A DNA stretch of 64,000 bases from the NCBI GenBank assembly GCA_033065855.1, contig JAVXUO010002626.1, positions 152,310 to 216,309 on the forward strand. The letters are read 5' to 3'. Under the pieces are notes generated by a model, which was not told the origin of the DNA, ran no database searches, and saw nothing but the letters and a program-made list of their open reading frames with translations. Below, piece by piece: positions 4,431 through 64,000 of the stretch. Within the stretch, counting starts at the first letter, position 1; each line of letters opens with the position of its first letter. The position numbers and the translations under genes were made by a program. This stretch comes from Escallonia rubra (lineage: Eukaryota; Streptophyta; Magnoliopsida; Escalloniales; Escalloniaceae).

Positions 4431-4551
4431 GAACTAGGCGCGATGCCCTTCAAGGACCTGCTCTCGTCCCGGTGGTGGTGTCGACGATCAACGGTAACAT
4501 GAGTGGACATGCTCGCAGCTCAGTGCTCAGAGTCCGCTGCGAGGGGTCCTC

Positions 4552-30900: not shown

Positions 30901-33123
30901 GCATTTCTTGCAAAATTGAAGGGAAAATTTTAAGGGGCAATGAGGCCAAATGTTGTATGGTTGGCAACTATGAAACCATACACATAAGATGAGTGTTGTC
31001 CAAATGAGAATGCTGATGTGGATGTGGCCACACAAGGAGGGATAGAATAACAAACGAGGACATACGCAAGTGGGAGGTGAAGTTGGAGCCAATTGAAGAA
31101 AAGATGAGGGAACATCACTTCAGATGTTTGGTCATATCCAACGCAGGCTTTTCGATGCCCTTGTAAGAAGAAGTGATTTGTGCCAACTTCATAAGGTAAG
31201 ACGAGGTAGCTGTAGACGTTTATAACTCGACGAGTAGTGGTGAGAAAAGACTTGTTTGGTGAGAAAAGACTTGTTTGCTAGAGATCTTTTAGAGGACATA
31301 TGCTCCAATAGAGAGTATGGAGGAAAATGATTCATGTACTCGACACCAACTTGGACAGAGGCTTGGATGATGATGATTATGAGTACCCCGAGTCAACCTT
31401 TGCCTTGCACTGAGTACAACAACAGACTTTCTTAACAAGCCGATTAGCGAATAACAACGCGAATGAAACTAAAACAATTAGAGTCCACTCAAGCTCTATC
31501 TCAGACGCGATACAATTTTGTAAATTGAAATTGAACCATGACTTTAGTTAGGGTACGAGATGTTTTGATAATTTTTTGATTCCTTGATTCCACTCGAGCT
31601 CTATCTCACACGCAATAGAATCGTGACTGAGTAGGCGAAGTTCTGATTTCTTTTGTGTGCCTTTGTTCCCAAAAGAAGATCTAATCATACAACAAAAAAC
31701 GTACAGCGTATTGTATTGAATTCAGGTTTTGAGAAGGTAAAAAACACCAATATCTTGATGGATTTCCATCTTATAAATGCCTTGTACAGGTTCTTAAAAG
31801 GAAGTTTAGTGCAGGGACGAGGCGCTGCAGACACAGATTAGCATGTCGTAGCGGTTGTAGATAAGAGTCATTGGGCGTATCATTTTCGTTCCAAATGATG
31901 CAAAAAGGCATGTGTAATATTAAGGGCATTTTTTGTACTTTTTTATAAGAAAAAGGATACTTTTGGAAATCACCAAGTCGTGAAACACTTTGCACTTTTA
32001 AGGTAGAGATGTTAAACTGCGACGTGCTAAAACACGTCTACTTATGTGAAGCTTGTTTAATGGCACAATTGCTCTGTCTAGTTAGAAAGACCAATTTCTG
32101 AACGATAATACTCCGTGGATGATCTAAATTTAGAGGTGCAACTCTCACCAACAAAAAAAAGGGAGAGGATAGATTGTGGATTTCAAATCTATGGTCTAGA
32201 GTAACAATTATCAACAACAATTGCAAGTTTAACCCATTAGGTTCTTATTCCTCAATTACAGTGACTTGGATTCCAGTCGCATACAACCTCTCTGCTTGAT
32301 AATCAATGCTTAAATATTATTGTTGTGAAGAGAAACGCATGGTCTATTGAGATATTGCAGGACATTGATGCCATATCATTCCTTGATAAACGAAAATTGT
32401 CAGGCTGGTATAATACGAGTTCAGTTAATGGTATGTTGCGCAATTTAATGTTGTTACGCGGCGTAGTGGCATAGAGGAATACTAAATTTCAAAATGCAAT
32501 TGCAGTAACACGAAGCTGGGATTTGCCAATCAGCTTTGGCCTATACAGAAAGAAGATAAATTGATTCATTAGTCATAGTGGTGTATCGCAACATTGCGGG
32601 ATTTTAATTTCTTTGAAAACGAAAGATGCAGGCCTGGTGTTTTAGGAGAAATTTTTAAGTTAAAATCAGCCCAGTTGCGCAACAATTCAAAACTTGAACC
32701 ATTGTTTTTATGACCAATCTGATTCAAATTCCTTGCTTGAGACATGCCAAAACTTGTACTACAACATAAATAGATTACACAAATGCTTGAATCCGCACAC
32801 GAATAACAGCATAAAAGAAAACCACAAGGCGCAACGGGACAAACCGGTTTTGCAAACTCGATCTTGAGCGCGTTGCCGTGGAGGGGGGCCCCCTGGAGGG
32901 CGTCCTTGGCCTTCCTGGCGTCATCGAGGCGCTTGAAGAAGACGAACGCGTAGCTCCGCGACGGGTACGACGTCACGTTGTCCACCGCGCCGTGCCTCCC
33001 GAACAGCGACGCCAGCTCCGGATCCGTCACGTCCGCTGAAAGGTTACCCACCCACAGGTTGTTCGACGGCGGCGCCTCCCCGTCCTCCGCCTTGCCCGGT
33101 CTCGTGGACGGCGGCGGCGGCAT
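24940..33123 (-). CDS. FPA: Flowering time control protein FPA (RRM-SPOC RNA-binding protein)
   Basis: Five coding exons: 33123-32845, 28530-28285, 28112-27972, 27791-26866 and 26191-24940, all with GT-AG introns. They join to 2844 bases, exactly 948 codons (947 aa; Arabidopsis FPA is about 900). Exon 1 holds RRM1 ([17 protein letters not shown]), exon 2 RRM2 ([17 protein letters not shown]) and exon 4 RRM3 ([10 protein letters not shown]) plus the start of the SPOC domain ([15 protein letters not shown]). Exon 5 holds the rest of SPOC ([35 protein letters not shown]) and a long Q/P/S/N-rich tail ending [19 protein letters not shown] is a nuclear protein of the autonomous flowering pathway that controls poly(A) site choice and represses FLC in Arabidopsis. 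No frame damage is seen. Intron 1 is 4.3 kb and carries transposon debris. Confidence 0.96.
30110..30545 (+). repeat. Diverged direct duplication in FPA intron 1
   Basis: Two copies of about 170 bp, roughly 30135-30300 and 30393-30545. They share TTATCAGCTA, TAACAACCTAAA, AACATCACTGT / TACATCACTGT and AAAGCTTTTATCC / AAAGCTTTATCC in the same order. Probably tandem duplication of an old insertion; function unknown. Confidence 0.55.
30640..31180 (+). pseudogene. LINE (L1-type) reverse transcriptase 3' remnant in FPA intron 1
   Basis: Plus-strand reading across several frames gives fragments of the conserved C-terminal part of plant L1 ORF2: [38 protein letters not shown] and, near 31080, KVGVAPIEEK-like text, followed by a degraded RCLVISNAG. 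Frameshifts and stops are frequent, so it is dead. It lies antisense to FPA, in the first intron. Confidence 0.6.
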
Positions 33124-33338
33124 CGTTGGTTGTTGCTGGTTGAAGCTTAAGATGATAGAAGGAACAAAAGCCTACCAAATTCACTGGTAAGAGAAATTCT
33201 CTCACTGTATGGTCTGAAACAGAGAGGAATCGACAAATTTACAAGAGAAATTGGATTTATATATTGGGGGGAGGAAACCCTAGAAGGCGATTGAAGAAGA
33301 GGAGAGAAGGTGTAAAAGAAGACGCGTCGAACAGATGA

Positions 33339-40446: not shown

Positions 40447-43400
40447 TCAATCATTTTCAGTTTGCGAATCATCTTCATCACTATCCTCGTCGCACTCTTC
40501 TTCGTGGGACTCGTCGTCCTCTTCATCTTCTAATTCATCCTCTTCATCAGTAGACTCGGTCACATCATCTCCAACACTTTCAACATCTTCCGCGTCATCA
40601 TCTACGACTTCTTCTCCCACAAGAAGTGTTGTTGGAAGAGGAAGATCGTCCTCCTCGTTGTTGACCTCAACAGGGAACAAGACACGTGGTTGGTCGGCTT
40701 GAAAGGAGTCTAGCTCACTGTCATATGTCACGGGCAATTTCTTGGACTTGATAGTTGTATACCAATGAGATTTGGGATTGGCGACGTCCTCCGCGTAAAA
40801 GACTTGTACAGCTTGACTAGCAAACACAAAGGGCTCGTCTGATGCAAGTCTTGACTTGACATTGACATCTACAATCCCTTGAGAGCTAACACGGATTCCT
40901 CTGCTGCATGTGACATCGAACCACGTACACTTGAACATTACCAGGCGGTTTTGGGAACCCAGATATGTTAGCTCAACAATCTCATCTAACTCTCCGTAAA
41001 AATCCATGCAATTCTCGGCATAACAGTCGCCGTTGACCAAGACTCCACTGTTTTGGGTTTGTTTTGTTCGGTCATCATCTTTTACGTTAAACCTAAACCC
41101 GTTGATGATATAACCTCCGTAACAGGATGTTTGTTTGTTAGGGCCTTCGGCTAGTAATTTCAAGCAGGAGGCCACTGGTCTATCCATTGACTGAACCTAT
41201 TGTAGATGACGGTAAACATTAAGGATAAATCAGTATACTAATTGGCCACAGAACTGTATATAACACATAATATAATTTCGTTAAATAATCTTACACGGAT
41301 TTTGAACCACTGTACAAATTGTGACTTCCGGTGAGATTCAAGTCCAGCGGGATCAGTGATTAAAGATTCCGCATCGAACTCACTGCAAACCAATATGCAT
41401 CTAACTCGCTTAACACACACTTTCAATTATGTACAGCAATGTAAGTGAATTAAGACTTTAACTTACTCAACGAATGCCGAAACTTCATCGCAATTTAGAA
41501 GGGCATATATTGTTGCAGCACTGTACTCTTCATCTGTTAGCCATCGAGTATACGTTCGGCCGAACGGACTACCTGACTGCTTGAATATTGACAATTGCCC
41601 TTCCAAATTTGTGCTTGCTCCGGGATCATTTCGGCCTAGTTGATTTAACCTTGTACCAACATCCGAACCGAAATATTGACTACAAAAGTTTACAAGTTCT
41701 TCCATTACGTAAGCCTCCGCAATTGAGCCCTCAACCCGAGCCTTATTACGGACTTTTTTCTTTAAATGGAACATGAACCTAGAAGTTTAGGGAATCGAGT
41801 TAGGTGGAATATCAATGATAACAGATGTCGCATTAAGTGTAAACGAACAACTGTAACAATTTAAGGATTACCTCTCGAAGGGATACATCCACCGATATTG
41901 CACGGGTCCACCCATCTTAGCTTCATATGCCAAGTGAACAGGCAGATGCTCCATTGAATCAAAGAACGAAGGTGGGAAGATTTTCTCCAGCTTGCAAATC
42001 GTCACCACAATGTTCTTCTCAAGCACTTCCATGTTACTCACCCGGATCGTAGAAGAGCATATATCTCGAAAGAAATGAGATAATTCAGTCAAAGTCTCGC
42101 AAACAACCCGTGGCAACAGTCCCCGGAAGGCAATAGGAATGAATCTCTCCATGAATACGTGGCAGTCGTGACTCTTCATCCCTTGGAACTTGCATTCCGA
42201 AACATTGCAACAACGAGATATGTTGGACGCAAACCCATCCGGAAGCTTCAAATTCTTAACCCACTGACAGACCTTCTCCACTTGTTTCTTGTCTAGACAG
42301 TAAGGTGCTTTCGGAAGTATGGTCCTCCCACTGACTGTCCGAGGATGCAATTCACGGCGTACACCCAACTGTTGTAGATCCCTTCTCGCTTTAAGGTGAT
42401 CTTTCGATTTGCCCTTGAAATTCATCACTGTGTTGAACACATTATCAAAAACGTTCTTCTCAATATGCATCACATCCATGTTGTTTCGGATAACGAGCGT
42501 CCTCCAGTAGGCTAACTCCCAGAAGATACAAAATTTTCTCCAGTTGTGCTCTTTCCCGAACCCTGCAATCTTCTGATCCGGCACACCCTTACCGTGTGGT
42601 ATGTCAGTATCAAGTGCCTCCAGGTGTGAGAGTACTTCTTCACCAGATGGGTAGTCCAGCGTGACAACCTCACGCTCGATTGTCCCGTCAAATTTATCCT
42701 TCTGCCTACGAAACTGATGGCCCGGTGGCAAAAGCTTACGGTGACATCCGAACCACGAGGCCTTTCCGCCGTGCTTTAACGTATGACCGGGGTTCACGCC
42801 CATACAAGCAGGGCATGCTAGCTTCCCATGTGTGCTCCAGCCACACGTCATTCCCAATGCGGGGAAATCATGTATAGTCCACATCAAAGCAGCCCTCATC
42901 TGAAAATTTTGTTTAAGGGATGCATCATATGTTTCGACTCCATGATTCCATAATTGTTTTAACTCATCAATCAACGGCCTTAAATACACATCTATGTCCT
43001 TACCGGGACTCTTCGGCCCCGGAATAAGCAACGACAAGAACATATACGGCTTCTTCATGCACATGCCTGGTGGAAGGTTGTAAGGGACAATAATAACAGG
43101 CCAACAGGAGTAAGGCGTGGTAGACTGACCGAAAGGGTTGAACCCATCGGTTGCCAGACCAAGTCTAACATTCCGAACTTCCTGAGCAAAAACTGGATGC
43201 CTGCGGTCAAACTCCTTCCACGCCTCTCCATCAGCTGGGTGTGTCAGCACATCGGCATCGTTGCTGCGAGTCTCACGGTGAGCCCTCATATGTTCAGCCG
43301 TACTGGAGGAGTAGTACATTCTCTGAAGCCGTGGTGTGACCGGGAAATATCGCAATATCTTCCATGCAATGTTTTTCTTCTTCCCTTTGTCCGGTTTGTA

Positions 43401-44105
43401 CCTCGAATGATCACACACTGGACATAATGACAAATCCTTATTCTCTTTCCAGAATAATACACAATCGTTATTGCACGCATCTATCCGGTCGTAGCTCAAC
43501 CCAAGTTTCCTCATCATCTTCTTCGCGTCATAGTACGACGGCGGTAGCTTTTCACTTTCGGGCAGTATTTCTTTGATGAAGGTAACAAACTCGTTAAAAC
43601 CTTTCTCGCTCAGCCCGTGGTCTGATTTCAACTGTAATAACCTACTAACCGCAGACAGCCGTGTGTGTTTCGGAGCTCCATCCCACAGCGGCTCTTCCGC
43701 AGCTCTCAACAACTCATAAAACTGATGAGCCCCCTCGTTCGGCGGTTGTGGCCTGTCGTTACCCCAGTCAACATTAGCATGCCCAACATCCATAATCATA
43801 TCTCGGAAATCATATCGTGCCTCCTCCCTAACTTCAGTTTGACTAGCCAGGTTGGACGACAATACTATCGTTTCCCCGTGCTGCGTCCACCTTGTGTATC
43901 CACCCATAAAACCGTACCGACGAAGATGCCATTTTACTTCAATTCTTTTTCTCCAGTGCAACAACTCACATCTACCGCACGGGCACCTTATCTTATCAAG
44001 GTCAACATGTGCAGGATGCGCATAAGCGAAGTCGAGAAATTCGTCAACGCGACACTCAAAATCTTCAGCATTCTTCCTTTTCATCCAACTTCGATCGACT
44101 GACAT
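40447..44105 (-). CDS. TNPD/TNP2-type CACTA transposase
   Basis: Four exons, 44105-41872, 41778-41467, 41382-41295 and 41196-40447, join to 3384 bases (1127 aa) with GT-AG introns and no internal stop. Domain order: transposase-associated N domain (SVDRSWMKRKNAEDFECRVD, CPCGRCE), the Transposase_21/TNP2 catalytic region (CPVCDHSRYK, ATDGFNPFG, HDFPALGMTCGWSTHG, NMDVMHIEKNVFDNVFNT), DUF4218 (LKSHDCHVFMERF-like, here MKSHDCHVFMERFIPIAFRG; HLPVHLAYEA; RNKARVEGSIAEAYV) and DUF4216 (YGELDEIVELTYLG, KCTWFDV). It ends in an acidic tail rich in E/D. It is the endonuclease/strand-transfer protein of the element, acting in the nucleus. Confidence 0.93.
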
Positions 44106-44356
44106 GACGACTGAATTATCGTACTGTATACCACCTTCAATAATGACCAGTGATTAAGTATTGCCGATGTAAATATCAATGCATGAATGTTACAACACGT
44201 CTACATATTTCCCCTCCACTCTTGAACAGGTAGTGGTCCTATCCCATTCAGAAAAGCACATGTTTATAAAACAGTGAATAACTCATGCTTAGTCCGATGT
44301 CTGTGGAAAATTCGGCAGCACCTCCCCGCATTTCTCCAAGTACACCACATCGATTA

Positions 44357-50300: not shown

Positions 50301-52792
50301 AATATGACAATAATTCTTCATCTATTGCCTCGGCTCCAGCTAGATCTGATGATCCTGCATGGGCTCACGGTAAAGAGGTTGTAGGGAAAAGAAACAACAA
50401 CATCTGCATTCACTGTGACAAACATCTTAAAGGTGGAGGAATAACTCGATTAAAGATGCACCTTGTAGGGGTTACTGGACAAGTAAAAGCTTGCAAAAAG
50501 AGCTCTGCATGACGTGAGATGGCAGATGAAACAATTGCTTGAAGGGTATCAAAAAACAAAAAGCAAGGAAGGAAAAGTTAAATGTGAATATTGGCTATGG
50601 GGATTGCATTGATGTAGATGATGATAGTGAAGATAGTGTTGTGTCGACTGATTCTGATGGTAATGCGGGAAAAAAAAGGGAAGGAAGTTGCAGTTACAAG
50701 TAAACGGAAAAAGATTAGTAGCTTTTTTGCCCCAAGAATAACTCTAGGGTCTCAACCTTCTAAAAAAAAGTGCTATGGCAACTAAAGAAATGGTTGATAA
50801 TGCTAAATTAACAGTTGCATATTGTGGTACGATGCTAATGTACCATTTAATAGGGCTCATTCTAAGTATTACCAACCAATGTTTGACGCTGCATTAGCTG
50901 TTGGACCAGGATTTAAAGCACTATCTTTCCATGACTTAAGAAGAAACTTGTTGCGTACTTTAGTTGATGAGATCACTACATACTTAGATGAATTTAGGGT
51001 GATATGGGAGCTATATGGTTGTTCTGTTATGTCTGATGGGTGGTCTAATTGTAGGCAAGAGCCCGTTATCAACTTTCTTGTTTATTGTCCTAAAGGTACC
51101 ATGTTTTTAAAATCAATTGATGCATCCGACCTTACTGAGGATGCTGATACACTTTATGGCATTTTTAATAAAGTTGTTCAGCTTATCGATCATAATTACA
51201 TTGTTCAGTTCATCAGTGATAATGAGGCCACTTATAAAGTAGCTCGAAAAAGGTTACAAAGGGAGTATGGATTTTTTTTGGGCTCCTTGTGCAGCTCATT
51301 GCATAGACTTGATGTTAGAAAACCTCGCTGATGTTAGACACTTCCCCACCGTAGATGCTACCATTATAAAAGCTAAAAATATCACAAAGTTTATTTACAA
51401 TCATGGGTTTGTTGTGAATATGATGAGAAAAGAGTTTACCAATGGTAGAGAACTGTGTCGGCCTGGAATAACTAGATTTGCAATTAATTTTCTTAGTCTT
51501 CAATCCCTGTTCAAGTTTAAGAAAGAGCTTAGACAGATGTTCACTTGTGATAAGTGGCTTAATTTTAAGCTTGCCAAACGCATTGTTGGGAAGGAAGTTG
51601 CGAAATCGGTGCTAGAAGATAGGGATTTTTGGTTGTAATGTCAGCATGTTGTGAAGCTTAGTGAACCTTCAGTGAGGGTTCTTCGTCTCACAGACGGTGA
51701 TGAAAAGCCTTCTATGGGGTACTTGTATGAAGCCATTGACAAGTCAAAGGCGACAATCAAATCAAACTTTAAGAATCGGTTATCCCTTTATATGCCAGTC
51801 CTCAGAGTGATTGATGTGAGGTGGGATAAACAACTTTCAAGCCCACTTCATTCAGCCAGCTGTTTTCTTAATCCTGGAATTTTTTTTCAAGCCTTCTTTC
51901 AAGAAGCAAAAAGAGGTTATTAGAGGCTTACTTAGTACAATTACAGCTTTAGTGCCTGATGATTACATGCAAGACTAGATCAGTTCACAACTCGAAAAGT
52001 ATAAGCAAGCTACAAGTGACTTTGGTATGCCTATTGCTGTTCGTCATCTTGAAAAACTAAATCCAGGTTAGACATTTATCCTTCCATTTATGCTTTTTTT
52101 TATTGCAAAAGTTTGTCAAGTAGTTACATTCTTACTGGATAGTTGATTAGCGTCTTACAATTCTTATTGCAACCGATTTTGTTTAAAATTATTAACGTGT
52201 CAAACTTTTATTTTCTATTATAGTTGCATGGTGGGAGCAATTTGGAAACAACTGTCCGGATTTGCACACGTTTGCAATACGTGTACTTAGTCAGTGTACT
52301 AGTGCAACTGGGTGTGAAAGAAATTGGAGTGCGTTTGAGTTTATCCATTCCAAGAAGCGCAATAGATTGGAGCACAAACGACTAAATGATCTTATTTTTG
52401 TTCGTTATAACTTGAAACTTCGAGAAAGGTAACATTGTAATAATCACTTTGCTATTAAAATAATGTGACATATACATCATTTGCAAAATTCTTTATCAAT
52501 CTGTTTTTATCTTGTAAAGGCTATTGGTCAAACAAAAGAAGCACTTGATCCCATTAGCCTCGATAACATTGATGTTCTTGTTGATTTGGTGTCCGAGGAG
52601 GAATCTGTTATTACCCAAGAAGATTTAGACAATGATGGTGGATGAGATGTCCTTCAACCAGAGCCTGCTGTAGTTAACTGAGAAGATGAAGAAGTACATT
52701 ACGAGGATGAGGAAGATGCACTTCATAACATTCCTAGCCAATATGATTGGGAATTCGGAGGGGAGGGAGATCCTTATCACTATATCGAGTGA
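50301..52792 (+). pseudogene. hAT transposase, copy 2 (BED finger, DUF659, dimerisation domain)
   Basis: BED zinc finger at 50340-50500 (DPAWAHGKEV, CIHCDKHLKGGGITRLKMHL). DUF659 core at 50822-51300, a further conserved block at 51280-51640 (CAAHCIDLMLENLADV), and after an intron (about 52068-52223) the hAT C-terminal dimerisation motif, CTSATGCERNWSAFEFIHSK. A further intron lies at about 52430-52517 and an acidic tail ends at 52792. Lesions: TGA at 50510, a 1-bp loss near 50828 relative to copy 1, a shift at about 51275, a TAA at 51636, a shift at about 51905, TAG at 51976, and TGA in the tail (52644). Dead as a protein, but it serves as the empty-site control for CACTA A. Confidence 0.9.

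Positions 52793-52921: not shown

Positions 52922-52980
<59 letters not shown>
52922..52980. repeat. (AT)n microsatellite
   Basis: About 29 AT dinucleotides directly left of the inferred end of the large Mutator-type locus. A similar shorter (TA)n tract is at 40337-40362. Confidence 0.95.
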
Positions 52981-52982
<2 letters not shown>

Positions 52983-53026
52983 AAGCTGATCCGTTGATAG
53001 CGTGGGCAAAATAGGAGAAGTTGCAA

Positions 53027-53074
53027 GCGCGATCTGACCGTCCATCCCGAAAGATGGACGGCCCAGATCGCGCC
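53027..53074. other. 48-bp hairpin near the locus end
   Basis: GCGCGATCTG pairs with CAGATCGCGC and CCGTCCATC with GATGGACGG around a six-base loop; one unpaired base lies on each side. It is followed by CTTTTTC. Confidence 0.8.
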
Positions 53075-53089
53075 TTTTTCGAAAGCTGT

Positions 53090-53465
53090 CAGTCGTCCGC
53101 CATACAGTATGGCGAACGGCTGTTTTTTTACCAAATTGCCCCTCCGCGCCTGTCCGCTAAACTGTATGGCGGAGGACATTAAAGTCCTGATGGGAGACAG
53201 CCAAAAAGACGTCCGCGATACTGTGTACCGGACGTCCCTAGGCTGACACCTGTCCTTTTTGCCCCTCCATACCGTACGCTATACTGTATCCCAAACGAAA
53301 TTGATTTCCTGACACGAGACAGCAAAAAAGGTATCCGTTATACAGTGTATCGGACCTCGCCTAGGCTGACACCTGTCAGGACCTGACTTTCAGGGACTTT
53401 ATTTCTGCACGTGTCAGAGTGTCGGGAATAATTTTCGCTATACAGTATCGCGGACAGGCTTTTCC
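53090..53465. repeat. Dispersed GTCCGCTATAC-type palindromes, left cluster
   Basis: Six diverged copies at about 53096, 53151, 53208, 53269, 53333 and 53437, such as GTCCGCCATACAGTATGGCG and CGCTATACAGTATCGCGGAC. They lie immediately upstream of the transposase leader, so they may be transposase or regulator binding sites. Confidence 0.65.
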
Positions 53466-53598
53466 CGTATACCCCAAAGTTCCCTGATTCTCAGCTCTTT
53501 CGGCAAAATTTTCTTCTCCTTCGGATTCACTTGCTTCCATTTTCGGCTCCCCTCAAGCTTCGAGTAAAACTTGCTTCAATCTTCTTCAGTCAAGCAAG

Positions 53599-54027
53599 GT
53601 AAGTTTCTGATCTCAAATTGGTTCTGGGTGGATTGACTGATAAAGTATATATATTTTTTTTGGGCAAAAAAATATAGATTTTTGATGATGTTCTAGAAAT
53701 TAATTTGTTAACTTTAAAGAAGTTTATTGTAGTTAATTTTGATTTTTTTGAGGGGCGCTAACTTCGGCACATCTATCCTATTGCCTTTCGAATTTTTTGA
53801 GATACGTTTGTTGTATTTTGGCATGATGAATTTGTCTAACGCTCTTAGTAATTTTAATTTGTTATGTTCAATAAATCTATAATTAGCAAAATAGGAGACT
53901 TTTGAGATTATGTATATGGTATATTTGTCATCTTAAATTTGTCTATTCGTCAAGATAATTTTTAGGTAATATTTTCAGTTGAAAATGTCATTTGATTGTT
54001 AAGCGTAGTCTATATTTCTACATATAG
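53599..54027 (+). other. Intron in the transposase 5' UTR
   Basis: Donor AAG|GTAAGTTTCT at 53598/53599 and acceptor TTCTACATATAG at 54027. The CT-rich leader before it (53480-53598) and the ATG at 54042, 14 bases into the next exon, fit a spliced leader. Confidence 0.6.
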
Positions 54028-54041
54028 GGAGCTGTTTCACA

Positions 54042-56339
54042 ATGTCTGATTTCGTGTCGAGCTCCAACACCCCCGTAGATGCTAGTGATCCGTATCTAGG
54101 ACGAACCTTTCAAACATTGGAGGAAGCTGGAGAATGTTTCCGAGCGTATTCATTGAGGGTTGGATTTGGCATTAGAATAAAGACTTCAAGAACGAGCAAC
54201 GTAACGAGAAAGATATGCTCTCGCTTATACTAGTGTCATAGGGGCAGAAACCCAGTGCAAAATGAGACACGCGTAGGCAACGATGACAGTGATGATGAAG
54301 TATGATATTCGCGCAGAAGACGAGACTTCTTTGCGTGAACGAATTGCCAGGTCAAGATGTTCGTAAGCTATAAACCCAAGCAAGATCATTGGCTTATTAC
54401 CAGCCTGAAACTGGCACACAATCACCCGTTAGTAGTAACCCCTTCTAAGGTGAGTTAGATGCATCAACACAAGAAGATGGGTAAGGTCGCGAGGAGCCTC
54501 ATTCACACAATGAGCGATGCGCGGCTAGGACCTACCGACATGATTAATGTTCTTGCTGAACAGGCCGGGGGAATTCCAAATTTAAACTTTAACACGACAG
54601 ACGTTCGTAACGCGGTCCGAACCCATAAACGAGCCGCGTATGACCTCAATGATGCTCAAGCCACAATGAGCCTATTGAAGCGGATGCAGATGAAGGACCC
54701 GCAGTTTACCTTCGATTATAAACTTGACGACGAGCATCGAGTTAGCACAATTTTTTGGGTCGACGGTCATTCGAGGCTTGCTTATAAGCATTTTGGGGAT
54801 GTCGTGACTTTCGACACCACATACCGTACCAACAAGTACTCGATGCCGTTTGCCCCTTTCACGGGGGTCAATCATCATTATCACTCCATCATGTTCGGGT
54901 TCACCTTGTTAAGGGACGAGAGCGAGAGTTCTTTTGAATGGTTGTTTAGTGTGTGGCTGGAAGCCATGAACTTCAAAGCATCCAACGTTATCATCACCGG
55001 TCAAGATTTGGCAATGAAGAAGGCTATTGCCACTGTCTTCCCAGATACTCGACACAACTTGTGCACTTGGCACATAAGCAACAAATACCCCGAACGTTTG
55101 CATCACGTGTACGCAAAGTTTCCAGACTTTAAACAGGATTTTGACACGTGCGTTAGCAAGTCATTAACGATTGAGGAATTTGAGGAGAGGTGGAAAAAGC
55201 TTGTTGAGGATTACTCATTGCAAGACAACGGGTAGCTCCAGCACTTGTACGAGCTCAAAGAGCAATGGATTGGCGTTTACACGAGGAGACATTTTTCTGT
55301 GGGCATGAAAACGACGGGCAGGAGTGAATCTATGAATGCCACGTTCGATAGTTACGTGGGTACAGCTACCAATTTGAAAAGTTTCGTCACATCCGCACAG
55401 AAAGCGGTTGCGTCGTTGTTCGTAAAAGAAAGGGCTGCAGACTTTGCAACCACGTACAAACATAGGAGAAGGTTGCTTGAGACCCCGCTGGAGCTGAACG
55501 GTGCCAAAGTCTATACGAAGGAGATCTTCTTGCTATACCAAGTAGAGCTGCAGAAATCGGGACGGTACTGTATAAACAAGGTGGCAAAAAAGTCTGGGTT
55601 TAAGTACAAGGTTTATTCGCTCGTGAATGACCTCGTTCCTGAGAAGCTGCGCAGAATGTATACGGTGAGCCACGACACATTGACGGACTCGGTGACATGT
55701 GTTTGCAAGAAGTTTGAGTTCCATGGCATCCTGTGTAGACACATTCTGCGCTTTTTCACCCAGAAGAATATCAGGACAATCCCCGATAAATACGTCTTGC
55801 CACGGTGGACGAAAGGTGCTAACAGGTTGCACGGTACCATTGCCATTTCGGAGCACCCGTATACTGACTTTGAAGAATCGGAGATGTTGCGGTATAATCA
55901 TCTGGTGACGAGTTTCACCTATTTGTCCGTAAAGGCTGCTGCTTCAATGGTCGGTTATAAAGATCTCCTCGAGGTAGCTCAGCAGCAAGAGCCCATCGTC
56001 GACCAGTTGGAAGCAGCTTCAGTCACCAATGCGATTGACACCGAGCCTACGACGGGATCAGAAGATGACGAGCCGGGGGAGGAAGACGACAATGATATCC
56101 GGCCGTTGGATCCAATTATATCGCAAATGAAAGGCCACAAGAGATCTATGCGGATGAAAAGCTCTATTGAAACGGCAACTCAACCTAAAAAGCTGCGAAG
56201 GTGTGCATTGTGCAACAAAATGACCGATAACGACAAGCGGAACCATTACAGGGCACTGGGGATAACTTCAGGGGGTTTGCAAGACGGGGAAGAAGGTGAT
56301 GCCGAAGATGAGGACGAACAAGCTGCAGTGGACCTTTAA
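54042..56339 (+). pseudogene. FAR1-type MULE transposase with in-frame stops
   Basis: One frame runs 766 codons from ATG 54042 to TAA 56337. The N-terminal FAR1 DNA-binding domain has GRTFQTLEEAGECFRAYSLR and HNHPL. The MULE catalytic domain has VTFDTTYRTNKY (first Asp), GQDLAMKKAIATVFP and HNLCTWHI (second Asp region) and EEFEERWKKL (Glu region). A SWIM zinc finger follows (CVCKKFEFHGILCRHIL), then an acidic tail. Stops interrupt at 54231 (TAG), 54303 (TGA), 54336 (TGA), 54456 (TAG) and 55233 (TAG), but no frameshift is present. Related host genes are the FHY3/FAR1/FRS factors. Its motif order, the short leader intron and the surrounding repeats favour a transposon transposase. Confidence 0.9.
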
Positions 56340-56471
56340 TTTTTTGTATAAGTTTGACATTTGTAATAATTTTCGGAGGGATAATTTTTCGACCGTATAC
56401 TGGAATTTTAAAAAAATGGACCTATGAGAGGCCATCGAATCAAATCTAAAGTCTTAATTTTTTTTTGTAAG

Positions 56472-56790
56472 CCCCGTCCGCTATACAATGTAGCGGACGA
56501 CATCGCAGATTTAATTTTTTTGGTTTTCTTTTATGTCCGCTATACAATCTGGCGGACGCAATCGCAGAATTCACTTTTGGTCTTCTTTTATGTCCGCTAT
56601 ACAATCTAGCGGACGTCATCGCAGAAAAACTTTTGGTATTCTTTTATGTCCGCTATACAATGTAGCGGACGCCATCGCAGAAAAACTTTTGGTATTCTTT
56701 TATGTCCGCTATACAATGTAGCGGACGTCATCGCAGAAAAACTTTTGGTATTCTTTTATGTCCGCTATACAATATAGCGGATAACTCTAC
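56472..56790 (+). repeat. 56-bp tandem repeat with the GTCCGCTATAC palindrome
   Basis: Six copies; the marker ATGTCCGCTATACAAT is at 56533, 56590, 56646, 56702 and 56758, with steps of 57, 56, 56 and 56. Units read ATGTCCGCTATACAATGTAG, then CGGACGTCATCGCAGAAAAA, then CTTTTGGTATTCTTTT. It lies between the transposase stop and the B3 gene. Confidence 0.9.
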
Positions 56791-56959
56791 CCTATTATAT
56801 ATATTAATCATATCGGGCAATCAGCTGTTATCAGTCCGCTTAGGGCACTCTCTCTGTCTCGAACATTTAACCCAGGCCGCTACCCCATCTACGGCGACCC
56901 ACATCTCCGGTGACCCACAACTCCGGCGATAAACCGTCCTCCCCTCAACGCCGACCTCG

Positions 56960-57428
56960 ATGGCTTCTGGATCGGAGACCACCTACGATTTTATTGGCAA
57001 CTTGCACCTGGCAGGCAAACACTTTTTCAAAGTCATGATGCCGGGGTTTGAGAATGAACTTGTAGGCCATCCCTCTTTCTCTGTATTTTCGTGTGTTAAA
57101 AGTTTGATCTTTTGGTTAAAAACTAACCTATTTTTTGTATTGTGTTTGTTAGGACATACCGGAAGCCTTGACCAATCAATTTACAACAATTCATGGGAGT
57201 GCAAGATTATATAGCAGCAAGGGGGCATGGCAGGTTGAAATCAAGCTGAAGCCCGGCCGACCCCAAAAAAAGTAATTCGCAGAGGGTTGGAACGTCTTCG
57301 TGCGCCAGCATGGCCTCGAACTCGGGAACTTTGTAGTGTTTGAACACCTTGGGTGGTGGGATTTTCAAGTTGTAATCTTTGATCGGAGCGCTTGTGAAAA
57401 AATTTCTTTCCCCCAATGTGAACCTTAA
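56960..57428 (+). pseudogene. B3-domain (REM-like) gene in the Mutator locus, one premature stop
   Basis: Two exons, 56960-57061 and 57153-57428, with donor CTT|GTAGG and acceptor TTTGTTAG. They encode a short protein (125 codons) that is nearly all one B3 DNA-binding domain: GKHFFKVMMPGFENEL, DIPEALTNQFTTIHGSARLY, SSKGAWQVEIKL, GWNVFVRQHGLELGNFVVFE and FQVVIFDRSACEK. This is the REM/B3 order (basic first strand, FV..HGL.GNF, IFD.SACEK). A TAA at 57273-57275 interrupts the frame (PQKK*FAEGW) but the rest is intact. A plausible leader is at 56880-56959. B3 proteins bind DNA in the nucleus; here it may bind element DNA. Host capture is the alternative. Confidence 0.85.
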
Positions 57429-57597
57429 TTTATTATTAATAAATTAATTTATGTTCCTGTTCATTATGTTTCCAAATTTTTTCTCGCTTAATTGTGCTTA
57501 ATTGTGTCGTTTGAGATTCCCTCGATAGTCGACGATCGTTGATTATGAATCGTACGTTATTTATTGTTTATCGATATTGAGATTGTTGATTCTGTTG

Positions 57598-57712
57598 CAA
57601 AACAAGTTTTCGGGGCGCCAATTTATTAAAACAGCATTACGCTACAATGTCGCTAAAACAAGTCTTCGGGTGCCAATTTATTAAAACTGCATTACGCTAT
57701 AACTTCTAGCTC
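57598..57712 (+). repeat. 56-bp direct duplication
   Basis: AAAACAAGTTTTCGGGGCGC and CAATTTATTAAAAC plus GCATTACGCTA occur twice, starting at about 57599 and 57655. Confidence 0.7.
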
Positions 57713-57727
57713 TACTATATAGCGGAC

Positions 57728-58266
57728 ATAAGGCCTCCGCTTAGGCCGGGTTTCGGGAAGGTCGGAACTAAGTGTCTGGTTCGTGCCAACCATTTTCTGG
57801 TCCAAGTTGCAGACAATGATCTGCCCCACTGTGATGTAAGATCCTCAGCTGTGCACCTTTCTGCTTGGTCATGTATTCTGCGGGGCTGTCCGCTATACTA
57901 TATAGCGGACCTAGGAGAGAAAAAACTAAGGGTTGACCATCTGTCTTTCTGCTTGGCCGTCCGCTATATAGTAGAGCGGACGGCCCAGCAGAAAGTTTTT
58001 CTGTTTCTATCCAAATCCGTCATACTATAAAGCAGACGGCACCGTAGAAAGAAAGTCTCTAGCACAATACATGATTAGCGAGGAAGTATTATCGTAATAC
58101 ATCCACGCACCACGGAAACCCACACACAAACAAAAGGTGCACAGCTGAGGATCTCAAGTCATAGTGGTGCAGATCATTGTCTGCAACTTGGACCAGAAAA
58201 TGGTTGGCACGGACCAGACACTTAGTTCCGACCTTCCCGAACCCCGGCCTAAGCGGAGGCCTTATG
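57728..58266. repeat. Large inverted repeat (133-bp arms, 273-bp spacer)
   Basis: Arms 57728-57860 and 58134-58266 are reverse complements with roughly eight to ten mismatches by eye. The shared core includes CAGATCATTGTCTGCAACTT and GGACCAGAAAATGGTTGGCA. The spacer holds three GTCCGCTATA-type palindromes (57889, 57957, 58016). The right arm starts 20 bp downstream of the minus-strand small gene's stop, so read-through of that gene would produce a long hairpin RNA. Confidence 0.88.
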
Positions 58267-58286
58267 GCCTTAGAAGAACTCGATCT

Positions 58287-58717
58287 TCAGTCATCTTCAT
58301 CTGAAACTGGAGCATCGGAAACAGATCCTTCTTCGAAGCTCATGTTCCAGTATACTTGTGCTTCATTGTTGTTGCCATCTTTATGTGCATCACGTGCCAT
58401 ACGACGTAAGTTATGCCTACTTTGACGAACTCTCATTCTATTATTTTCTTCACTATTCGATGCAGTGCCCTTTCAAGCTCCATGTGTGTAATTCGAGGCA
58501 TGTTGATTGCCTTTTGTCGAGGTATGAGTATATTCATGCTCCGTGAATCAGCTACTAAGACCTCATATTCATTCATCCGATAAGACCATTCTGCACGTAA
58601 TGTATTAACATAGCTTGATGAGTAACGCAAACTTGGACGCAAAGAATAGTGAAATTCATCTTCGCCCGCCCAGTAACGACCCATTGCTTCAAAAATATCT
58701 CGTGGAGTATATGACAT
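58287..58717 (-). pseudogene. Small gene of unknown family (copy on the minus strand, one frameshift)
   Basis: Starts MSYTPRDIFEAMGRYWAGED and contains LRAEWSYRMNEYEVLVADSR, then PRQKAINMPRITHMELERAL. At about 58440-58447 the first frame stops (VKKIIE*), but a one-base shift restores ENNRMRVRQSRHNLRRMARD and an acidic end (SDAPVSDEDD*), stop at 58287-58289. The restored reading aligns with the plus-strand gene at 59104: both have EW.YR..E.E.L, PR, R.ENNRM..R and an acidic C terminus. About 143 codons. I recognise no domain; the K/R-rich helix could bind nucleic acid. The start codon is the first ATG in frame after a TATA-containing region. Confidence 0.65.
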
Positions 58718-59103
58718 TTCCAGAGTTGTTATGAAATTGGGAGTATATCACTCTATGCCCTTTGTCCTTCGTGCAATGCATGTACTTATATATACTTTGA
58801 AACGGGACCACTTTATGAGATGCTACAGGTTCAACTTTATGAGATGTGACAAGCCTCTGCAATAGACTAAAGACTTGTCTTCTCACCAAAGAGACTTGTC
58901 TTGTCACCAAAGACTTGTCAACTTTATGACACGGGCATGCTATTGTCTCCAACTATTGTCATCTTCAATGTCCAGAGACTTGTCTTGTCACCAGAGATGG
59001 GCAGACTATTGTGTAGCTATCACACCAATATATTGTGTATGTGTGTGTGGGCTTATTTGTACATGTTAGCCATGCTCATCGCATTAGAACCGCCTAGGTT
59101 TAC
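58718..59103. promoter_or_regulatory. Shared region between the two divergent small genes
   Basis: 385 bp between the two start codons. TATA-like sequences occur on both strands: AAAGTATATATAAG read leftwards at 58786-58799, and CCAATATATTGTG read rightwards at 59025-59037. The block AGACTTGTCTTGTCACCA(A/G)AG recurs at about 58869, 58888, 58905 (short) and 58977. These are candidate regulator sites. Confidence 0.5.
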
Positions 59104-59538
59104 ATGGCAGGAGTTCCTGGGAGTTCTAGTCTGTGGGGACGTGAGACTGTGTGGTTGTTGTGTGAAAGGAACGACGACTACAAAGAAGTGAAGTACACAG
59201 ACCTGAGAGATTATTATTGCGGTTTATGGAGAGAATGGGCATATCGAGTTGAGGAATCAGAAGCACTACACCAAGATCTCACCACGCCGAGGGCACCTGT
59301 GCCGCAACGTCATTCACTTACTATGTCGAGGCGTAATGTTAAGCAGTGTAAGAAAGCTGTGCGCCGAATTCGTATGGAGAATAACCGGATGTTGCTGCGT
59401 AGAAAACAATTTTACATGCTTCAACTTGTGGAAGAAATGACCGAGGCTAGTGGGAGGCAGCTCAAATCAAACGAGAGAAATAATATTTTAACCAATGATC
59501 AGTACTTATCTGATGAGTATATGTCAAATGAAGAGTGA
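59104..59538 (+). CDS. Small gene of unknown family (plus-strand paralogue)
   Basis: Encodes 144 residues without interruption: MAGVPGSSSLWGRETVWLLC, YYCGLWREWAYRVEESEALH, PQRHSLTMSRRNVKQCKKAV, RRIRMENNRMLLRRKQFYML and an acidic end, LSDEYMSNEE*. Related to the minus-strand gene 58717-58287, as judged by the EWAYR/EWSYR, ENNRM and acidic-tail positions. No known domain. A Trp-rich start, a central basic helix (about residues 85-115) and an acidic tail can be seen. In-frame codons continue a little upstream of this ATG (59041 onward), so the start is provisional. Its paralogy and placement argue that it is a real element gene and not a chance frame. Confidence 0.6.
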   Translation: MAGVPGSSSLWGRETVWLLCERNDDYKEVKYTDLRDYYCGLWREWAYRVEESEALHQDLTTPRAPVPQRHSLTMSRRNVKQCKKAVRRIRMENNRMLLRRKQFYMLQLVEEMTEASGRQLKSNERNNILTNDQYLSDEYMSNEE

Positions 59539-59689
59539 TATATATATCTCTTCCTACTGCATGTTAGGATTTCATTCCAACCGGCACTTATCCACATGTC
59601 ATTCAAATTAGCGAATCCCGTCTTTTGAAGCATGTAAAATATTGGGAATTTATGTTTCTAACTACATCCGTCATACTATAATGGGCTAA

Positions 59690-60440
59690 CTAGCATGCCT
59701 AAGGTGCAATGAGCAAAAAAAAAAAGTGACAAAAAAAATTACAACATTTTGCGCAAGCTATGAATTTGGCGCTAAAGTGTGCGCGAATAGGCCCTTCATA
59801 GGAAAACCAAAAAAATAATTTGTCTCGTTTTTTGCCAAAATTCAAAGAAATGGGCTAACTAGCGCGCCTAAGGTGCAATGAGCAAAAAAAAGTGACAAAA
59901 AAAAAAACATTTTCGCAAGCTATGAATTTGGCGCTAAAGTGTGCGCGAATAGGCCCTTCATAGGAAAACCAAAAAAATAATTTGTCTAGATTTTCGCCGA
60001 AATTCATAGAAATGGGCTATATAGCGTGCCTAAGGTGCAATGAGCAAAAAAAAAGTGACAAAAAAAAAACATTTTTCGCAAGCTATGAATTTGGCGCTAA
60101 AGTGTGCGCGAATAGGCCCTTCATATGAAAACCAAAAAAATAATTTGTCTCGATTTTCGCCGAAATTCATAGAAATGGGCTATATAGCGTGCCTAAGGTG
60201 CAATGAGCAAAAAAAAAATATTTTTCGCAAGCTATGAATTTGGCGCTAAAGTGTGCGCGAATAGGCCCTTCATAGGAAAACCAAAAAAATAATTTGTCTC
60301 GATTTTCGCCGAAATTCATAGAAATGAGCTATATAGCGTGCCTAAGGTGCAATGAGCAAAAAAAAAGTGACCAAAAAAATTCCAATATTTTTCGCAAGAT
60401 ATGAATTTGGCGCTAAATTGTACACGAATAGTTTTTCGCA
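59690..60440 (+). repeat. 150-169-bp tandem array
   Basis: Five units; AAGGTGCAATGAGCAAAAAA is at 59701, 59870, 60032, 60195 and 60344 (steps 169, 162, 163, 149). Units contain GCAAGCTATGAATTTGGCGC and TGTGCGCGAATAGGCCCTTC. Step differences come from A-tract length and small deletions. No coding potential; the short frame at 60040 is repeat-derived. Confidence 0.9.
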
Positions 60441-60476
60441 AGCAAAAGGAAGACTCCCCAACACTTAGTTTTTTCC

Positions 60477-60765
60477 GGCCCTGTCCGCTATACTATATAG
60501 CGGACAGTGAAGCAGAAGGTCTTCTCCTCAACACTTAGTTTTTTTCGGCGCTATCTATGTCCGCTATACTATATAGCGGATAGTAAAGCAGAAGGAAGCC
60601 TCCCCAAAACTTAGTTTGCCTCCCCAACACTTAGTTATTTTTTTCGGCCCTATCTACGTCCGCTATACTATATGGCGGACAGTCAAGCAGAAGGAAGCAT
60701 CCCCAACACTTAGTTTTTTTTCGGCCCTATCTACGTCCGCTATACTATATAGCGGACAATCCAAC
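60477..60765 (+). repeat. 75-98-bp tandem repeat with the perfect palindrome
   Basis: Four units with GTCCGCTATA-N3-TATAGCGGAC or a one-base variant at about 60484, 60559, 60659 and 60736. Spacers contain AAGCAGAAGG and CCCAACACTTAGTTTTTTTC. The array lies between the two gene blocks of the locus, beyond the 3' end of the PMD-Ulp1 gene. Confidence 0.88.
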
Positions 60766-60990
60766 ATAAACAATCTCACTTGGTTTTTACACTTTGTTTC
60801 CCCCTGGTCAAAGCAAATCACACAGAACAAATCAAACACTCAGATCAACAACACAACGATATCTTTGAATCAAATCAACAAAATTACAACAACGATCACA
60901 TCTCAGTCAACACAAATGAAATCATCAATCGCATTCAACGATAAGATTCAAGAAGTTTAAGGACAATTAAAAAAGTCAAGCAAAATGTTA

Positions 60991-63900
60991 TTATACGCAA
61001 ACATTGTCAATTGGGGCCCTCAGCCCCGCGGGATCCCCCTCGTTACACGGATTTACAATAAATCTAATAGCTCTAGGCCGGCCATTGATAATTTGCCAAG
61101 CCATCCTATACCTAAAGCAGTCTATGCATTCTTGGCTCCAGACGGTCTTCTCGAGGCTCTCCAACCGACAGATGTAATCCATGTACATGCAGACGAAGAC
61201 ACCGCAGTCCGAGGAATTAAGTTGCTTGGGCCTACTCCTCTTCAATCGGAAAACAAGCTGCGTCCCGCGCGACGGGATCACTGGACTATCTCGGTTCTCT
61301 CGACGACGCTTACTATTGACCATTCCAGCAAATAGATTCTGCGAGACACATAATAAGCATTAAATATTAAACATAGCGAACATAATAAGATTAATCATAA
61401 TATGCAAGTTACAATAAGAAGTAAACATGATCTTACCATGGCATCCAACTCGCCTAAGCCTCGGTACATTTCAATCACACCGATCACGGGGGTATCATCG
61501 TAGAGACTGTCGAGGACTGATACGGTATTCGTTATCGGTTCATAGCAAACCAAGAACCAGTGGGAATTCACTATAGCTGGGATTAGAAACACGTCCGCCA
61601 CACCTGCACTCACTGGACTCGGCCGAGCAAGATATGCTTGTAGGTTAGCGGACGGTCTCCACTGGAGCTGGGCATTCCCCTTTCTCGCCTGCTTCCTCGC
61701 CTTGTCCCAGTCGTTATACTCTTGTACTAGGATGCCATGAAAGTAAGCATCGAGGATAAAAATGCGCGGACCATAGTTAGGCTGCTCCCGACTCATTTGC
61801 CTCATAATTTACACGTAGTGTGAGATGACAAAGTTGTCTAACCAAATTCCCGGCGCCAGCGAGGACAGTTCTTTCCACGAGGCATTGTAATCCATAGTCA
61901 GCGGGTGATCCACGTCATACGACGCTCCGTCCGGGGGGGGCCCGCTAAAATAACGGGCTTGGATTAGGTCATGTTTATGCTGCTTCAGGGGCCTGGCTGG
62001 ATGCCCTTTTGGATATTGCCCTCGGGGGTTGACCGGTTGCTCTTGCCCTCCGCCGAGGGGCAAGAGCAACGGAAGAAATTGGCCTCCAACCAACGGATCG
62101 GCCGGCTGATAATCCCCTTGGGGGGCCCCGGCCGGCTGATAATCGCCTTCGAGGGCCCCGGCCGACTGATATTGCTCGCTGGCCATTTCTTCCGCCGGCT
62201 GATATTGCCCTTCGGGGCCGCCAAGTGGTTCCGCCCACGGGACAATGGGCAGTGCCTCGTTGAAACCGTAAGGCCAGTCTTGCGTGACTTGACTCTGAGA
62301 GAGGGGTTGAGGTTCCGGGAACAAATTGAAGGTCGAGCCGTTGTAATCGGCCCACGACGCTTGAGCATGTCCCATCCCCGGTACAGAGGGACCACCAACT
62401 CCCTGGCTCACCCCTAAAGCTTGCCCGGAGGGATCAACGTTATACGGGATGCCGCCCGTATAACCCATTCCCGGGCTGTCGACCGAAGACTGTCCCGATG
62501 CTTGCCGCACAAAATTCCTGCATCCTATAGCCAGTGCAGCAGCCTGTTGGGGAAGATCCTCGCCCATTGCGCTTATCAGATCCTTCCGCTCACTCAACTT
62601 CTGGAAGAATGCAAGCGAGGCATTAACCTACATCCAAAGAGATAACAAATAAGTAACTTTAATCAGACATTTATATTCAAGACAAGTTGAGCAACTTATG
62701 AGATTGTATGCCATACGCTCGTCGATCTGACCCCTAGGCGCATACCTCGCCCCGCGTTCAAAGTTCACTGGGGCTACTCTCCTCCGCGTGATGTGGGAGT
62801 ACCACTCATCGTACTTCGCGATGCTGATAACGGGGTCCGGCTCCGAGACGATGGCCGCTAGTGTGTCCTGCCAAGAAGTCCAGAGCTCTAGTTCGGCCGC
62901 GCACAATTCTTGCTCATTGGCCTTGCCAAATCGCCTGACATCCGGTGGGTCCCTGTTAACCCTCATATCTGGGGCGCCGGCTGGCAAACCCTGCTCCAAC
63001 TCAAAATGGCGCATTGCTCGGTCTGGCAGCTGCCACTCTGCGACCTCGAAGTGGATGAGGGGTGTGCGCTGTAACCCGGAGAGCGTGAAGACGAACGACT
63101 CTTCTACCCGTCGCGCCAAACGTATGTACGGTGCCCAACGCAATTGGCCCGGAGATAGGCGGTCGAACTCCCCTCGATAGTACGTGATGTTGTGATGGGG
63201 ATCGACTCTCCTGCGGTAGTGGCTATTCTTCCGGATGTACTCCCAAGCACGCAACCGAGGCCACACTCTATCGGTTCCATCCCTACGCGTCGGTGCACCG
63301 GGAGCAAGGTGTTCATAAGACCACACCTGAGAACATGGGCAAATTATACTTATATCGTCGATTCAACAAAAGCAAAAACAAAAAAAAAACAATAACGGTA
63401 GTGGATTTATATGATATACATGCAATAGCGAGAGACATGCACATATGGCTTTGGAGTTGGGCCTCGTTGCCTTGTGCAATTCTCGGTACATATACGAAAG
63501 AACCGCTGCACCCCATGCATAATCTCCAACCTCCGCCAGGTTACCCAACAATGATAAATATCTCACGCTGACCGTGTTCTTCGATGTCGTTGGGAATAAT
63601 ATTGCCCCCACCACCCTCCAAAGGAAGGCTTGTGTGTACATCACAAGGTCACGGCCTGTATAGTTCTCCGGCAAAACCCCGTAGGTATCTACCAACCACT
63701 TCAACTTGATACCACCACTGCTAAATTGATCCTGGGGTATCGAAGTTAAGAAGTCCCTAGCGGTTCTCTTATTCGTTGCTTCTGACGGAGGAGCAATTAC
63801 CGGCCGCCCCGTCACCGGCAACCCTAAGATGAACCCTATATCTTCTAGGGTAATTGTCATCTCTCCGAGCGGGAAGTGAAACGTATTCGTTTCACTTCTC

Positions 63901-64000
63901 CACCTCTCAACAAGGGCGCCTATCAAGGCCCAGTCAAGCTGTTGAAATATCTGCCCATGCGTGAAAATCCCAAACCCAATTCCACGCAATATCCTCTTCT
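60991..64000 (-). pseudogene. PMD-Ulp1 fusion gene (plant mobile domain plus C48 cysteine protease), partial
   Basis: Enters from the right edge. The exon to 63420 encodes the plant mobile domain (DWALIGALVERWRSETNTFH, FPLGEMTITLEDIGFILGLP, WLVDTYGVLPENY). Exon 63326-about 62700 continues it (WSYEHLAPGAPTRRDG, ELEQGLPAGAP). About 62627-61812 is a low-complexity G/Q/P region with EGDYQPAGAPQGDYQPA repeats. 61805-61437 and 61338-60991 encode the Ulp1 (C48) protease: NSHWFLVCYEP (His), VLDSLYDD (Asp), QLNSSDCGVFVCMYMD (Gln and Cys). All catalytic residues are present. A TAA at 61809-61811 interrupts the frame directly before the protease. The 62700/62627 junction is unclear because no donor in the right phase is present. 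PMD proteins of the MAIN/MAIL1 type and Ulp1 genes are known passengers of plant MULEs. Confidence 0.85.

Follow-up and report, generated by a model that had tools for sequence, protein, structure and literature searches.

Here, we describe the final part of a 64,000-nucleotide stretch of DNA from Escallonia rubra (the window), which represents the last 64 kb of a contig in a genome of 566 Mb. From position 52981 to its end, the window holds the left part of a single Mutator-type element (MULE) that is truncated by the end of the contig. The element carries a 23-bp palindrome of the form GTCCGCTA-N7-TAGCGGAC, which is an element-bound, constrained DNA site: it is found at set positions of the terminal inverted repeats (TIRs) and in arrays within the spacers, across subfamilies, with invariant spacing, outside matched coding sequence, and in non-autonomous copies as well. 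We tentatively interpret the element as a TIR-type MULE that targets TA microsatellites and bears an element-wide operator, the preferred reader of which is the element's own single-domain B3 protein in a role like that of TNPA in En/Spm. The probability we assign to this reading is about 0.4.

Gene content and termini of the element

A sequence-only reading of the window had proposed that a MULE transposase, a B3 protein, two divergent paralogous small genes (S1 and S2) and a PMD-Ulp1 fusion lie in one stretch. This is in good agreement with Pfam searches. In the window, the transposase matches the MULE domain PF10551 (E = 2.6e-30) plus SWIM, the B3 protein matches PF02362 (E = 7.3e-8), and the fusion matches PMD PF10536 (E = 2.3e-44) and Peptidase_C48 (E = 6.3e-6). 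The intact transposase of copy C26 (C-numbers denote contigs of the same genome that carry copies) matches PF10551 with E = 9.7e-33 and the FAR1 domain PF03101 with E = 3.8e-13. S1 and S2 are 28% identical and share a charged, helical-looking core, as judged by eye. Both remain without any Pfam match up to E = 1 in their window versions, and an intact S1 matches FAM167 below the cut-off (E = 0.028). A search of solved structures returned nothing for S2 at E up to 1, and for B3 weak matches to VRN1, LEC2 and FUS3 (E = 0.029–0.099). We take the B3 gene to be REM-like, and the translation of the Ulp1 part shows residues that presumably correspond to the His, Asp, Cys protease motif.

The window element begins with GGAAGCTGATCC immediately 3' of a (TA)n run, followed by the transposase, a two-exon B3 gene, the S1/S2 pair and, on the opposite strand, PMD-Ulp1. 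This copy is damaged in the transposase, in B3 and in S1. Its features are as follows.

52925..52980, no strand: (TA)n microsatellite hosting the element, from the sequence
52981..53260, plus strand: left TIR; conserved outer ~90 bp, short hairpin, then the putative operator sites
53095..53455, no strand: five palindrome sites in the left TIR and subterminal region, at 53095, 53152, 53211, 53333 and 53433, each with 2-3 mismatches in the window copy
54042..56339, plus strand: FAR1-MULE-SWIM transposase, interrupted in the window; a 765-codon open frame in C26, C77, C17 and C63
56476..56782, no strand: array 1, six palindrome sites upstream of B3, period ~56 bp
56960..57428, plus strand: single-domain B3 gene, exons 56960-57061 and 57153-57428; one in-frame stop in the window copy
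57888..57981, no strand: array 2, two palindrome sites and a degenerate third at 58015, within an inverted repeat
58287..58717, minus strand: small gene S1; frame broken in the window, 143 aa where intact
59104..59538, plus strand: small gene S2, 144 aa, open
60483..60757, no strand: array 3, four palindrome sites in the window copy; other copies have 4 to 19
60991..64000, minus strand: PMD-Ulp1 gene, reaching past the contig at its 5' end; Ulp1 at ~61000-61805 and PMD at ~62700-64000, joined by a linker

Further copies were obtained by fetching stretches on 10 of 17 listed contigs and smaller stretches on the remaining 7; these 17 are the first in file order and not a random sample. Both termini were located in a 1.9-kb non-autonomous copy adjoining C47 and in seven further copies (C77, C26, C1, C9, C17, C47 and C33). 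The shortest of these seven, C33, measures 5.3 kb and has the transposase only; the longest measures 12.9 kb. The TIRs are ~300 bp long in these copies elsewhere in the genome and enclose the gene set in six of the seven, with S1/S2 in C77, C26, C1, C9 and C47 and without the pair in C17. The order transposase, B3, S1/S2, Ulp1/PMD is common to the window, C25, C77, C63, C26 and C47, and a copy on C705 (5.5 kb fetched) carries B3, S1, S2 and Ulp1 in the order of the window. The S1/S2 pair is inverted in C1 and C9 and missing from C17 and C45. On the genome scale, the best 150 of 1,349 S2 candidates and the best 150 of 1,394 candidates for B3 exon 2 were scored. Stops are absent from 139 of these S2 and from 149 of these B3 matches, and 103 of the latter are identical to the query. 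Among the scored matches, at least 60 S2/B3 pairs lie no more than 4 kb apart, all 60 on the same strand and 59 of them spaced 1.6–2.2 kb; since just the best 150 of each gene were scored, this number is a lower bound. The proposal that the genes travel together as one element is thus supported. Genes residing in separate elements with their own termini were not encountered in the other genomic copies, and an arrangement of separate elements side by side is rejected because other copies have both TIRs around the genes.

The right terminus is absent from the window because the window stops at the contig end. The search for it and for a target duplication, which the sequence-only reading had suggested, therefore succeeded outside the window only, with the termini of the seven copies above and a 9-bp target site duplication, TTGTTTAAT, that flanks C17. 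The duplication is known from this one copy and is unresolvable for copies within (TA)n. Seventeen of 20 ends in 12 copies sit in TA-phase sequence, one end of C25 being narrowly below the cut-off, and the end sequence GGGAGCTGATCCNTTGA occurs 2,396 times genome-wide (control 0). With a mudrA-type transposase, long TIRs in seven copies and the 9-bp duplication in C17, the element belongs to the TIR-type MULEs.

The spaced palindrome

Sixteen palindrome matches with up to 3 mismatches are present in the window, all of them within 53095-60757, against a mean of 0.00 in 100 shuffles; a model with 8-bp arms (up to 4 mismatches) yields 17 sites. The exact form TCCGC-N11-GCGGA occurs 13 times in the window and nowhere in it outside the locus. 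The earlier observation of a dispersed palindrome that links the locus is hence well founded. Genome-wide, the exact 23-bp palindrome has 2,611 sites and none when read backwards, and the core half-sites are found 26,138 times at N11 (backwards control 180) versus 99 times at N10 (control 158). For the arms GTCCGCTA/TAGCGGAC with at most one mismatch each, gaps of up to 20 were counted in 12 copies (11 plus a nested small one): N7 separates 218 of 221 pairs and N20 the other 3, with no pair at any other gap from 0 to 19. A chance origin is rejected by the shuffles and the backwards genome controls.

Frequent occurrence outside the locus had been named in the sequence-only reading as a point that would speak against its proposal. 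Taken literally, the palindrome is frequent elsewhere. Every one of the 17 contigs checked, however, has its sites within or next to relatives of the window element, so that their number does no harm to the idea. The site listed for C56 lies between a small copy and a relict, in a very short segment with the family terminal sequence at its end. Likewise, the claim that palindromes lie only between the genes needs amendment. None of 269 sites in 11 copies falls in tblastn-matched coding sequence, though coding sequence makes up 58,398 of 117,974 bp; sites also lie inside the TIRs, and the common S1/S2 promoter has none among the copies mapped.

Within the TIRs, sites occupy four corresponding places in nearly all 18 aligned repeats (the right TIR of C77 is without the first), and they are retained in non-autonomous copies of 0.9 and 1.9 kb. 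The arrays occupy the transposase-B3, B3-S1 and S2-Ulp1 intervals. A 137-bp inverted repeat brackets array 2 (57724-57860/58133-58269); array 3 has a period of most often 77–78 bp in subfamilies A and B, and its site number runs from 4 in the window to 19 in C63. The centre of TIR sites is mostly CWG (C11/G13 in 55 of 71 unique sites), that of array sites mostly CWA (C11/A13 in 52 of 75). For arrays 1 and 3, the majority profiles of subfamilies A, B and C show a GCAGAA-like word that starts 6 bases past the palindrome, and the two could possibly form a composite site.

Two other repeats were seen in the spacers of the window. Three ~24-bp repeats AGAGACTTGTCTTGTCACCAAAGA lie at 58869-58997 in the common S1/S2 promoter, the sole spacer without palindromes. 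Between S2 and array 3, at 59680-60431, a ~150-170 bp unit is repeated imperfectly in tandem, its five copies following one another in steps of 149-169; some units contain TATATAGCGTGCC, which resembles a decayed half-site.

The constraint on the site is evident from the alignments. Conservation across the 18 TIRs amounts to 0.913 in the outer 90 bp, 0.878 in the site columns and 0.669 in the remaining inner columns, and array sites are 80-89% identical between subfamilies versus 40-56% for their flanks. The ratio of nonsynonymous to synonymous substitution (dN/dS) is below 1 in all comparison groups except for Ulp1 in a single B-B pair (1.32); within subfamily A it is 0.90 for Ulp1. Between A and B, dS is 0.020 for B3, 0.145 for the transposase and 0.314 for PMD, and identity along the element shows the same B3 island. 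The B3 of subfamily C is distant from both A and B (dS 0.277 and 0.288). The simplest reading of these values is that the B3 segment may have been exchanged between subfamilies. Between A and C the transposase is the most conserved protein (dN 0.035 vs 0.188 for B3). Ulp1 reaches a dN of 0.319 between A and B, a fast divergence while the site stays fixed.

Candidate readers of the palindrome

In the mechanism we favour, the palindrome would be read as double-stranded DNA by a dimeric protein that the element encodes and that is supplied in trans. At the subterminal sites, B3 would help to flag the ends for the transposase, which itself would more likely contact the outer ~90 bp that are conserved. 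Within the spacer arrays, B3 could gather in number, control the element genes and plausibly keep them open against silencing. Each half-site holds CCG, and binding could therefore sense methylation. Of the 11 larger copies compared, 10 hold PMD-Ulp1, and every one of these 10 has the B3 gene as well, as does C705. We prefer B3 as the reader because the internal arrays lie far from the ends and are not obviously useful to a transposase, because the uniformity of B3 between A and B looks like exchange between elements sharing one operator, and because the outer end is separate and better conserved.

Several observations weigh against B3. A diverged relict on C56 has a transposase, part of a PMD and 8 sites within or next to its TIRs, with no B3 detectable (tblastn to E = 1e-3), and C33 has sites with the transposase only. 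Subfamily C (C1 and C9) keeps the site, and both sampled B3 genes are broken there, ~47-79% identical to the window's gene depending on the stretch. The transposase keeps pace with the site and is more conserved than B3 between A and C. The dN/dS of B3 is as high as 0.51-0.71, and no dimerising domain was recognised in this candidate reader besides the B3 domain. The C56 relict is not accepted as a disproof, as one deletion of the contiguous B3-to-Ulp1 block gives the same picture; neither this relict nor the diverged C9 copy settles the reader, since both are broken.

The transposase is a serious alternative that the sequence-only reading had overlooked, since the sites sit in TIRs, including those of non-autonomous copies. 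It may read the palindrome via its FAR1 zinc-finger domain, present in C26, with the TIR sites as subterminal binding sites and the arrays titrating the transposase or letting it regulate. All 18 aligned TIRs, those of the 0.9- and 1.9-kb copies, and those around apparent captured host gene pieces carry sites. The C56 relict, the state of B3 in subfamily C and the conservation of transposase and site alike from A to C point the same way. Precedents exist: MURA binds a ~32-bp site in Mutator TIRs (PMC3310237), and the TIR of the mosquito MULE Muta1 has 9 copies of a 12-bp subterminal repeat, only a transposase being named in the excerpt (PMC5225508). However, the transposase could instead have its site in the outer 90 bp, which are better conserved, an end-recognition protein offers no easy account of large internal arrays, and the CWG centres in TIRs versus CWA centres in arrays hint at a different use or origin. 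On balance we hold this alternative to be possible if somewhat doubtful; B3 and the transposase appear to be close candidates, between which the sequence does not decide.

The other candidates are considerably weaker. PMD-Ulp1 might be a functional counterpart of VANC/KIU of the Arabidopsis VANDALs (DUF1985, sometimes with Ulp1). VANC carries DUF1985, and VANC21 binds the 9-base motif YAGTATTAY in non-coding VANDAL21 DNA, where its targets multiply as tandem repeats of variable number (PMC5735166); certain VANC genes carry Ulp1 (PMC13317346), and an anti-silencing role of MULE-captured PMD in transposable elements was speculated upon (PMC5418596). The PMD of the window does show a DUF1985 match, but at E = 0.011 and 16.1 bits it stays under the family cut-off of 35.1. 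No DNA-binding domain was recognised in the protein and Ulp1 diverges rapidly against a fixed site, so that we regard this as improbable. A host transcription factor, or retention of the site as a hairpin of RNA or single-stranded DNA, seems slightly less probable still. The 10-bp arms are foldable, and among 145 unique sites, with relatedness uncontrolled, positions 7/17 covary (the observed value is attained in 7 of 2000 shuffles), as do 9/15 more weakly (17 of 2000). Yet positions 10/14 are A/T in 141 of the 145 sites, the remaining 4 not being pairs, and where 4/20 or 8/16 is mismatched, no alternative pair ever takes its place. As the A/T never swaps and 4/20 and 8/16 go uncompensated, base pairing is not the conserved property, and the hairpin is rejected as the conserved feature; given the weak covariation, recognition of the site as DNA is most likely. 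Against a host factor stands the finding that the sampled sites are element-bound, the place C9:114382 being left out of the sample. The least probable reader, at very long odds, is an S1/S2 heterodimer, suggested by the paired divergent paralogues with their common core and by the many open S2 matches. C17 and C45 carry 30 and 20 sites without the pair, which excludes it as a necessary reader in cis, and the common promoter of the pair is free of sites; S1/S2 could still act in trans. The remaining probability falls to readings beyond those named.

Returning to B3, a more far-reaching scenario is that a TIR-MULE acquired a host-type REM/B3 protein, that identically spaced operators are spread genome-wide on the element and its non-autonomous passengers, that B3 marks ends and keeps elements open, an anti-silencing independent of VANC, and that the reader gene was passed between subfamilies. 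We consider this combination rather unlikely. It draws on the 26,138 core-form places, for a sample of which the context was checked.

Relation to known elements and neighbouring observations

The sequence-only reading had compared the locus with VANDAL/VANC. The layout does match: like VANDAL21/Hiun of Arabidopsis, the element is a multi-gene MULE with a short non-coding motif in arrays of variable copy number (PMC5735166). The comparison fails in other respects. VANDALs are described as non-TIR (PMC13317346, PMC6446971), and a DUF1985 protein, which marks VANC, is not found here above the cut-off. YAGTATTAY is not a spaced dyad, as the site here is; VANC targets vary considerably among related elements, whereas this site is constant across subfamilies while B3 and Ulp1 diverge; and VANC function was shown experimentally, whereas that proposed for our element is a prediction. 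The likeness is therefore one of layout, and anti-silencing is putative here.

En/Spm elements of the CACTA superfamily are defined by CACTA termini and a Tnp2-type transposase. The present element ends with GGGAGCTGATC and has a MULE-type transposase. In En/Spm, transposition requires a second DNA-binding protein, TNPA, which works in trans on subterminal motifs present in repeated copies and also serves as a regulator of the element (PMC2613891). Superfamily, ends and proteins differ and the working plan alone is similar; it is nonetheless the closest working model.

Among MULEs, Ulp1-bearing forms (KAONASHI/KI-MULE, and TIR-MULEs of melon and grapevine) have Ulp1 opposite to the transposase, the same orientation as here, and TIR forms are known (PMC2528002). 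KAONASHI/KI-MULE are non-TIR, unlike our element, in which Ulp1 is joined to PMD and B3 and S1/S2 lie between the genes; neither is mentioned in the excerpt of that report (PMC2528002). PMD is known in MULEs of several grasses and Amborella (PMC5418596). MuTAnT of Medicago inserts into (TA)n with 9-bp duplications elsewhere, the same behaviour as here, and AutoMuTAnT measures 4.9 kb with a single transposase open reading frame (PMC4486113), as opposed to the multi-gene element described here. Muta1 retains its repeated motif within long TIRs in derivatives; the tandem 12-bp repeat is described from the TIRs only in the excerpt (PMC5225508), whereas our element has internal arrays and further genes. 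Literature searches over titles and beginnings of abstracts gave, among the matches listed, no MULE with B3 plus PMD or Ulp1 and none with a spaced dyad in arrays or palindromic subterminal motifs; a search on the letters of motif and TIR gave unrelated work only among the matches listed. Three features are thus already on record separately: Ulp1 in TIR-MULEs, TA targeting by MULEs, and subterminal sites in repeated copies. The B3 gene together with the repeated spaced operator, as we interpret it, sets the element apart as a novel variant: the superfamily is ordinary, its equipment unusual.

To our knowledge, sequence-specific self-regulation against plant silencing is known for few systems, namely VANDAL/VANC and TNPA as the En/Spm regulator. 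The present family adds a candidate to this short list: its 23-bp site is exactly defined and strictly spaced, the element encodes five candidate proteins, and genes are open in many of its copies. Whether an element protein reads the site and lifts silencing becomes a directly testable question.

Some observations concern small or nested copies. A ~930-bp non-autonomous copy (L024:1015-1946) seems to be built from TIRs and inverted array units and contains ten palindromes when up to 3 mismatches are allowed; inspection by eye shows no gene in it, and no search for open reading frames was made. Clustered non-autonomous copies at C9:41000-50999 (L031) have sites in their TIRs and enclose apparent captured host gene pieces, among them an open reading frame at 3883-4566 that we take to be phospholipase C-like. 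At C9:91000-102000 (L034+L032), a diverged MULE with TIR sites has its transposase split by a CACTA-like insert. The insert carries a broken B3 resembling that of the subfamily-C MULE, is apparently not a MULE itself, and contains no palindrome with fewer than 6 mismatches; its right end presumably represents a CACTA terminus. Near the element, the window itself holds a CACTA Tnp2 transposase at 40450-44153 (PF02992, E = 9.5e-86) and a DUF659 stretch at 50807-51328, which we assume to be hAT. Farther upstream, at 24943-33171, open reading frames with SPOC and RRM domains presumably belong to a host FPA-like gene.

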